DNA from: Cognaticolwellia sediminilitoris
GTDB lineage: Bacteria > Pseudomonadota > Gammaproteobacteria > Enterobacterales > Alteromonadaceae
Direction of reading: 5' to 3'
Assembly (NCBI GenBank): GCA_002104535.1
Contig: NBOG01000001.1
Coordinates: 404,867 to 468,866, forward strand
DNA: 64,000 bases
Made by a program: the position numbers and the translations under genes. Shown here in pieces: positions 23,650-54,828 of this stretch (position 1 is the stretch's first letter; every line of letters begins with the position of its first letter). The notes beneath the pieces were generated by a model. It ran no database searches. It saw only the letters and a list, made by a program, of their open reading frames with translations, and was not told where the DNA came from.

Positions 23650-23710
23650 ATGACCTCATTAATGGAGCCCTCCGCACCATAGTGTTAACTGCGTTTAAGC
23701 GCAGTGAAAT

Positions 23711-23841
23711 TAAGTAAATTCAAGTGTTCGGACTTAAGCAGTAAAACTGCAAATACCGTTGCGGGGGCAGTGAAGAAATCACATCTTCTTCCCTCAAATT
23801 TACTATATTAAACAGGCATTAAATAACCCTAGTGCCTGTCA
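23711..23841 (-). ncRNA. Second, compact cobalamin riboswitch aptamer (proximal to btuB)
   Basis: Read on the minus strand, GGGAA (23793-23789) is followed by the hairpin GAAGA/TCTTC and then by CTGCCCCCGCAACGGTA. A small hairpin GCAG/CTGC (23750-23738) follows, then the 3' core AAGTCCGAACAC (23735-23724). The outer stem AGTAAATT (23804-23797) pairs with AATTTACT (23720-23713). These are the conserved parts of the cobalamin riboswitch, but the peripheral helices between the CGCAAC segment and the 3' core are missing, so it is a short form. A hairpin CAGGCA/TGCCTG stands just upstream. Downstream, ACTGCG/CGCAGT (ending about 23690) and GGAGGGCTCC could form the expression platform near the btuB ribosome site. 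Confidence 0.7.
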
Positions 23842-23991
23842 CTTATTAAAGATATTTTCTAGTCATAAACACAGTAAATAACGCCATGTCATATTTTGCC
23901 TACAAGCTAGTAATAGCTTGGCAAAGCGCATTAATGCTCAAATTAACATCATAACTAGAGAGCCTAATAATCATTAGGCAAATATTTGTGT

Positions 23992-24083
23992 AACATCGAG
24001 GGTTTTAGCGTTTTGGGGAGAGCTATTCAACTTATGGAGAAAAAGATTGAATATTGAAAGCTCGAGTAACCCGCTCGATGTTG
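23992..24083 (-). promoter_or_regulatory. Leader with two mutually exclusive pairings
   Basis: Just after the distal aptamer the RNA can form a local hairpin TCGAG/CTCGA (24078-24062). Alternatively AACATCGAG (24083-24075) can pair with CTCGATGTT (24000-23992). The two overlap at TCGAG and cannot coexist, which is the layout expected of an expression platform. Inside the longer fold TATTCAA/TTGAATA also pair, and a TCTTTTTCTCC run lies in the loop. Confidence 0.45.
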
Positions 24084-24262
24084 CAATTAATGTTCAATTC
24101 ACCTGGTATCCTGACTTACAGCATCTAGACATGTCCCTTCCCAAACCGTTTTATAAGGTTTAGTGGTTAACATATCGCTCTGTTTACAGTTGCGGGTACA
24201 GTTGTGGACTCTCACCACATTCCCAGCTTTACTTAATTTTATCAGCGTTTAAATTAACCGCG
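24083..24262 (-). ncRNA. First, full-length cobalamin riboswitch aptamer (distal)
   Basis: On the minus strand the conserved elements occur in order. GGGAATGTGGTGAGAGTCC starts at 24224. It is followed by CCCGCAACTGTAA (24196-24184), then CCACT...GGGAAGG, and then AAGTCAGGATACC (24117-24105). An outer stem forms between GTTAATTT near 24258 and GAATTGAAC near 24090. This is the standard large cobalamin aptamer with its peripheral helices. It lies about 430 nt before the btuB ATG, far more than usual, because a second aptamer intervenes. Confidence 0.92.
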
Positions 24263-24497
24263 AAACGATAAAACTTTGTAAAATTGAATGAAACATTATT
24301 AATTTTCTGGCGAGATTATCGTCAGCTAGCGCGAAATAGCAAGGTTTATTTTTATCTCTACAAATGTCAGTGTTACTTAGACGGAAGATAAAGTGCGTAA
24401 ATACAAACATGCTAGTGAAAAATGTAATTATTTTCCCAACTTTTTGTTAAGGTAATACTTAATTATCTCGGTATAAATAATCCAACAAGGAAAAAGC

Positions 24498-54423: not shown

Positions 54424-54828
54424 GTTGGTGAGTTGACGCATAAGCCGGGTTTTGTATCTCTTCCGAAGAAGAGTGACAATCATTCGTCTAGGCTATAAAT
54501 CGCTCTATAGCTCAAGCAACCTACCCGGTTTCAACGCGAGCCACGCCATATGAAACCCTATTTGGTCTTGCTCCGGGTGGAGTTTACCCTGCAATTACTG
54601 TTACCAGCAATCCGGTGCGCTCTTACCGCACCCTTTCAGCCTTACCTGTGAAGTTCCTAAGAACAACCATCGGCGGTCTTCTCTCTGCTGCACTTGTCGT
54701 GGGCTCGCGCCCCCCAGGTGTTACCTGGCACCCTGCTCATTGGAGCCCGGACTTTCCTCCCCTCTATCTGTCTACCTCTTATAAATAAGCGGCACAACGA
54801 TAAAGCAGCGATTGTCTCGTCAACTCGG
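54424..54828 (-). ncRNA. rnpB: RNase P RNA, type A
   Basis: This is the catalytic RNA of RNase P, which trims the 5' ends of tRNA precursors. On the minus strand the molecule starts near GAGTTGACGAGACAATCGC (54826). It contains GAGGGGAGGAAAGTCCGGGC and GGTGCCAGGTAACACCTGG, and ends with AACCCGGCTTATGCGTCAAC. The first and last segments pair (GAGTTGAC with GTCAACTC, 54430-54437) as helix P1. Length is about 400 nt. A promoter and a terminator frame it. Confidence 0.97.

Follow-up and report, generated by a model that had tools for sequence, protein, structure and literature searches.

The btuB leader described here carries two cobalamin aptamers in series, a full-size distal one (aptamer A) and a compact proximal one (aptamer B). 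We consider it probable that this tandem arose through the collapse of an operon, and that A and B now act as two successive OFF gates on btuB. The origin by operon collapse is well supported, and the two-gate function is the likelier reading of the sequence. The ancestral arrangement was most likely an operon under one promoter, of the form A-cobT-cobS-cobU-cobQ-B-btuB, in which A preceded cobT and B preceded btuB, the last gene. A lineage that lost the ability to finish cobalamin would then have deleted the cob genes between the aptamers, leaving promoter-A-spacer-B-btuB. A, B and btuB would now lie on a single transcript. B is predicted to be an OFF switch, in which cobalamin closes an L5-L13 kissing loop beside the Shine-Dalgarno site and blocks btuB translation; A, on the same RNA, would lower what reaches btuB at high cobalamin, and the importer would be shut by two gates.

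Two aptamers in one leader

Across the window, the whole 64,000-nucleotide stretch that was analysed, a search with 4227 families placed both aptamers in RF00174, whose gathering threshold is 31.5 bits: A with 79.0 bits (E 8.3e-18) and B with 32.9 bits (E 1.3e-4), the latter only marginally above the threshold. The initial annotation had read two aptamers in series before btuB, a full-size one at 24083-24262 and a compact one at 23711-23841. Two RF00174 matches above the gathering score on the minus strand bear this out, its positions and motifs agree with the covariance-model matches, and the pairing of a full-size with a compact form also holds, B being without the P8-P12 extension. A lone match would have spoken against the tandem; the covariance-model check returned two significant ones. 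In a narrow search of 241 bases, the RF01482 (AdoCbl) model gave B 43.3 bits (E 4.9e-7), which makes it the best-scoring model for B at a score short of the 50 bits that mark membership in RF01482. The site of B is absent from the matches of a whole-genome search with RF01482, although cmscan scores that site, and we take this absence to be a miss of that search's first-look step.

Both aptamers lie in a btuB leader of ~0.7 kb on the minus strand (Table 1). A P13 hairpin is present for each, with a clear adjoining target for B only. The MFE fold of a 607-nt leader gave a z of -3.4 against 20 shuffles, and that fold does not tell the models apart. The best match of the btuB product is the TonB-B12 receptor model TIGR01779, at 425.6 bits against a cut-off of 599.7. 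Elsewhere on the minus strand the window holds an ordinary bacterial class A RNase P RNA (54425-54827, 319.5 bits).

Table 1. Features of the btuB leader, in positions of the window
Feature	Position	Strand	Basis
Promoter-like TTGCTA-16-GATAAT, upstream of A	24315..24342	-	Consensus scan and leader alignment
Full-size aptamer A, ortholog of the aptamer in the cobT leader of congeners	24086..24277	-	RF00174, 79.0 bits; identity
P13 hairpin of A; its loop CGGGUUA complements L5 ACCCG	24062..24078	-	16 leaders
Anti-P13 strand CUCGAUGUU, complementary to AACAUCGAG (24082-24074)	23992..24000	-	16 leaders
Hairpin GCCTAATGATTATTAGGC, same place as the hairpin before cobT in several congeners	23962..23979	-	Sequence and alignment
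Possible degenerate cobT start, Met-Leu-Ile-stop	23949-23938	-	Alignment
Spacer, site of cobT-cobS-cobU-cobQ in congeners	23840..23985	-	Position by alignment
5' hairpin ahead of compact aptamer	23812..23839	-	9 pairs, 5 with both-side changes, 12 leaders
Compact aptamer B	23713..23804; Rfam bounds 23702-23835 (RF00174), 23683-23816 (RF01482)	-	Scores and covariation, 12 leaders
P13 of B, loop with GGGC complementary to L5 GCCC (23768-23765)	23662..23680	-	12 leaders
Shine-Dalgarno GAGG of btuB, 4 nt past P13	23654..23657	-	Sequence
btuB-type TonB-dependent B12 receptor, 615 aa	21802..23649	-	Pfam Plug and TonB barrel; TIGR01779

Aptamer B is not a chance match. It is common to 12 leaders of the genus, that of the window's genome included, and 97.1% of the cells of its 38-pair structure pair, compared with 35-50% when partners are slid. 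Ten pairs show changes on both sides, a number reached in 0 of 500 shuffles, a control that relatedness alone can inflate; the count omits a P7-like hairpin and the hairpin before P13, which are gappy or shifted in the alignment. The counterparts in 11 congeners score 24.8-37.7 bits with RF00174, five of them under the threshold, and the compact match is sub-threshold in two of eight operonic genomes and three of four tandems but still aligns throughout. A covarying hairpin stands directly 5' of B in 12 of 12 aligned leaders. In the same leaders the P13 of B is paired in 98.3% of cells and its kissing loop in 100%; the sole U-U mismatch, at the upper end of P13, occurs in the window's genome. 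The btuB Shine-Dalgarno reads GAGG in 11 of the 12 leaders and GGGG in the other (G008). The anatomy of B points to translation: P13 stops 4 nt short of this site in the window's genome, and in each of the 12 leaders the P13 loop is paired with L5.

Aptamer A is 70-83% identical to six cobT-leader aptamers of congeners and 76-80% identical to the three other tandem copies. Its identity to six cobB-leader aptamers is 49-61%, and derivation from these is ruled out by the comparison. The window's genome shares the promoter-like block, P13 and the anti-P13 strand with the cobT leaders. Taken alone, the promoter match is weak, because the consensus scan found 4 sites where 4.2 were expected. The block above A is present in 16 of 16 aligned leaders; because the leaders were cut at TTGCTATT, only the remainder of the block counts as independent. 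The window's genome keeps 37 of the 38 block columns that are invariant in 12 operonic genomes.

The L5-L13 kissing loop of A, with 5 pairs, is always paired in the 16 leaders, and the P13 of A is paired in 79 of 80 cells, with a single mismatch in G002. The seven-pair anti-P13 helix is paired in 97.3% of cells across the 16 leaders, compared with 15-46% when partners are slid. It shows one double change, in the window's genome, where a change in the P13 of A is compensated in the anti-P13 strand; column shuffles matched this in 110 of 500 cases, and covariation, strong against slid partners and weak against shuffles, was dropped as proof of the helix.

Candidate outputs for A were sought without success. 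The hairpin before the former cobT site has no U-tract on the minus strand and is terminator-like on the plus strand only, and no intrinsic terminator is listed on the minus strand between A and btuB. Masking of the cobT start by the freed anti-P13 strand is plausible by eye in several genomes, but the duplex energies are no better than those of shuffles (z between -1.1 and +0.65 over 12 genomes, G005, G007, G009 and the window's genome not being among them). A Rho-type stretch of C over G after A is inconsistent: the best 78-nt value of C minus G runs from 4 to 19 in 16 genomes (14 in the window's genome). Originally A presumably targeted the cobT start, which has since been lost. In alignment A1, several rows end short of cobT because the ORF caller picked upstream starts.

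The locus across the genus

For 17 genomes of the genus, the window's genome (G000) included, we extracted the sequence surrounding the aptamers and mapped its ORFs; NCBIfam names for the locus genes come from one genome, G016. All 17 have RF00174 matches. Where orthologs appeared in named records, seven of nine loci were Colwellia and two were Lysobacter, at 32-33% identity; Colwellia is thus the most likely genus. In eight genomes (G002, G003, G004, G006, G008, G014, G015 and G016) the order is A-cobT-cobS-(cobU)-cobQ-B-btuB, with cobU listed in six of the eight and the aptamers 4-5 kb apart with genes between. Four more (G001, G005, G007 and G009) have an aptamer and cob genes, with no such btuB in the sampled stretch. 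The tandem without cob genes is found in another four (G000, G010, G011 and G012), where the aptamers are 0.25-0.76 kb apart. The remaining genome, G013, has neither arrangement in its stretch.

Some of these genomes show features of their own. The G013 stretch (L050), which has no such btuB, carries an aptamer where a different TonB-type receptor (c16) begins; next comes a protein of 493 aa, and the counterpart of this protein in G007 is without a Pfam match. In G014 (L039), BtuB is very divergent (branch lengths 0.67 and 0.89 in two trees) although nothing is unusual about the leader with its compact aptamer; a different receptor may have replaced the former one downstream of an unchanged riboswitch. 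Two sub-threshold RF00174 matches of 22.8 and 17.5 bits, ~170 nt apart, lie at C1:1323170-1323499 on the minus strand of G009 and are possibly another pair, or chance.

Both cobT and cobQ are present in 12 of the 17 genomes and were not found in G000, G010, G011, G012 and G013; four of these five carry the tandem. We found cobB in eight of the 17, the window's genome not among them. Since metH is present in all 17, B12 is used, and the cell of the window's genome probably must import B12 or late precursors.

Relics of cob genes remain in the spacers of three of the four tandems (G010-G012), in the original gene order among the matches listed. By tblastn, among the matches listed, G011 retains cobT residues 3-100 followed by cobQ 454-503; G012 retains cobQ 442-503, its cobT start being found by reading of the sequence; and G010 retains cobT 2-112, cobU 150-193 and cobQ 488-501, the last at only E 0.002. 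A blastn control gave 0 matches in 80 shuffled spacers. These three genomes keep the cobT start and a fragment of its reading frame. In the window's genome the spacer, 260 nt when counted from where A ends, gave no cob relic at E<=0.01 among the matches listed, the cobT-like frame is at most three codons long, and the platform is only 65% identical to that of G011 and 54% to that of G003. With no relic and this low identity, the support for collapse in the window's genome comes from synteny, from the nearest genome and from homology of the leaders.

The tandem has more than one origin. We set the tandem group by locus anatomy, a quick tree having already been seen before the AU tests; the rpoB tree covers 15 of the 17 genomes (rpoB was not found in G015 and G016) and the BtuB tree the 12 genomes with a counterpart in the sampled stretch. 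FastTree groups the window's genome with the operonic G003 (rpoB 0.91, BtuB 0.85, two flanking proteins 0.85 and 0.98); IQ-TREE support for this grouping is modest (rpoB 62/72, BtuB 84/77). G010-G012 form a clade with support of 100/100 (rpoB) and 100/99 (BtuB). One clade of all four tandems is rejected, with AU p values of 9.2e-5 (rpoB) and 8.4e-6 (BtuB) and a minimum of 2 changes, and the cob-loss genomes with G013 added do not form one clade either (p 3.9e-5, rpoB). Since a single origin is rejected, the operon collapsed at least twice, with both aptamers surviving. Given two origins, relics and operonic relatives, loss is the simplest route, and its steps are visible in living relatives as the intact operon, the operon with relics and the finished tandem.

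Present function and competing readings

The main question for function is whether A still acts. It is conceivable, but in our judgement rather unlikely, that A is a fading relic between promoter and gene and that B alone now regulates btuB. The cobT target of A is gone, and no output for A was identified in the scans for a terminator, for pairing with the cobT start and for C over G, as such a relic would predict. The sequence comparisons speak against this reading. Among G010-G012 the spacer is only 53-75% identical, with 30-203 gapped columns, whereas A is 94-99% identical, its platform 90-93%, the promoter with the 5' UTR 90-98%, the B leader 94-98% and btuB 92-96%; the yardstick, 300 nt upstream of the promoter, is at 81-91%. 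If the core of A is defined as the 60 columns that do not vary among 12 operonic genomes, each of the four tandems has an intact core, with 60 of 60 columns kept in G000, G011 and G012 and 59 of 60 in G010, compared with 0-4 misses in operonic genomes left out singly. P13 of A keeps 19-20 of 21 columns in the tandems, compared with 21/21 or 21/22 in the left-out set. Both aptamers have also outlived two independent collapses. Survivor bias is possible, since A sits immediately downstream of the promoter and will usually be spared by any deletion that leaves btuB expressed; and because the window's genome has no close relative among those found, selection on A is not measurable in that lineage, and in this genome taken alone A may be a relic. 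The core of B, 55 columns by the same definition, keeps 50-53 of 55 in the tandems against 0-4 misses in operonic genomes left out singly, and B is thus kept slightly less strictly in the tandems than in operonic genomes. That B is transcribed apart from A, from a promoter of its own in the spacer, strikes us as distinctly doubtful. The spacer is rich in A and T, a consensus scan says little for or against a promoter, and a promoter inside the end of cobQ is conceivable in the operonic genomes; but A and B are adjacent on the same strand with no minus-strand promoter-like site listed between them, and in the eight operonic genomes the cobQ stop is only 22-88 nt from the 5' hairpin of B (22-24 nt in G002, G003 and G006).

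The remaining alternatives concern the pair as a device. Its two members share a ligand class, are adjacent and serve one gene, and glycine and TPP tandems have been read as more digital switches (in the available part of PMC2258182), which would suit a local duplication of the first aptamer into a cooperative or two-input device. We give this account very little credence: A and B differ in architecture, congeners carry a separate counterpart of each, the two counterparts being 4-5 kb apart and divided by genes, and cob relics stand in three of the four tandems among the matches listed. For G010-G012 these relics contradict a duplication, and together with the separate counterparts they lead us to reject one aptamer duplicated into two. 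As the aptamers once stood before different cistrons, the pair need not be built for steeper or two-input control. A sensor of two cofactors, with adenosylcobalamin bound by one aptamer and methyl- or hydroxocobalamin by the other, also seems improbable to us. J6/3 does differ between the two, GAUA in A and AACA in B, and B combines features found together in the Mycobacterium tuberculosis ppe2 B12 switch, whose isoform preference is unlike that of a class I switch and which is neither AdoCbl-selective nor blind to AdoCbl in the part of PMC11260477 available. Against this, class I and IIb both bind AdoCbl and only IIa prefers smaller forms, according to the same portion of that source, and the top-scoring model of B is named for AdoCbl, model scores themselves not showing selectivity. 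The same text gives the class IIb features as no P8-P12 extension, GGAA at J3/4 and UCU at J6/3. In B, 17 nt replace the model positions of the extension, with a simple hairpin there in the alignment, and by reading of the alignment J3/4 is GGAA in 12 of 12 leaders; J6/3 is AACA in the window's genome and AGCA in the other 11, and UCU is not found. B therefore resembles class IIb in two features and departs from it in J6/3, and we do not assign it to that class. The ppe2 switch likewise is without the extension, has GGAA at J3/4 and is without UCU at J6/3; unlike the present locus it is a single switch, from another phylum, coupled to an upstream ORF (PMC11260477, as far as available).

Under the preferred reading, in which B would gate btuB translation and A would act before it on the same RNA, A may work in G010-G012 by Rho-dependent termination like that of E. 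coli or through a translated upstream ORF; both are possible there because these genomes keep the cobT start and a frame fragment. Translated upstream ORFs can occur in the leaders of B12 riboswitches and alter expression (PMC11260477, in the portion available).

Known tandems and the wider family

Tandem cobalamin aptamers are known and rare, at <1% of leaders according to the accessible part of PMC2258182. The tandem AdoCbl riboswitches noted there (Barrick and Breaker 2007, citing Sudarsan 2006) likewise have two cobalamin aptamers per leader; here, by contrast, a full-size and a compact form are combined, they were formerly separate control points, and their origin by gene loss is traceable. 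The Bacillus clausii metE tandem of SAM-I and AdoCbl riboswitches in that source also places two riboswitches in series, but with two ligands and transcription termination, neither established for the present locus. In the available text of PMC11162775, the E. coli btuB riboswitch likewise acts through a cobalamin aptamer on btuB translation initiation, with Rho-dependent termination; it has one aptamer, and at the present locus a role of Rho is only a possibility. Desulfovibrio tandem THI (TPP) elements place two same-class aptamers before one operon, as here. Their origin is left open in the part of PMC545781 available, which leaves cooperativity, a shifted concentration response or a recombination remnant as explanations of same-class tandems; here relics and intact operons are found. 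In a partial, chiefly open-access coverage of the literature we found no published account of this btuB tandem locus.

Why same-class tandems exist is an old question, now directly testable with natural constructs, and the locus is also a caution that two aptamers in series need not be a device selected for steep response. In a family list of 39 genomes from 38 genera, only the window's genome had two matches <1.5 kb apart, which speaks against a wide occurrence of the tandem in the family; scoring stopped at 49 candidates per genome, and weak aptamers can therefore be missed, and the count leaves out a 118-genome search with stricter filters. The list also has pairs 7-11 kb apart; the ones studied were all eight same-strand pairs 3.5-4.9 kb apart, in eight other genera (L077-L084), and in all eight the second aptamer stands directly before a btuB homolog (38-49% identity). 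For four of these pairs the intervening genes were read: they encode an ABC importer, an adenosyltransferase and a protein like BtuF, and one of the four has cobQ in addition; with NCBIfam models on one such gene set and that cobQ, the ATPase, permease and BtuF scored under their cut-offs. A double-gated importer gene may be usual in the family. Since several genera have a leader aptamer and a second one before btuB, losing the genes between would make a tandem. Our confidence is evenly balanced on the broader proposal, that operon collapse is a route to tandem riboswitches which at least twice in Colwellia fused control points into a selected two-gate OFF switch, with tighter repression of uptake in a maker turned scavenger, and that other genera with this layout are prone to the same. 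The window's genome has one further RF00174 match, of 130 nt on a different contig, ahead of two ORFs whose sequences, by inspection, resemble a BtuD ATPase and a BtuC permease.
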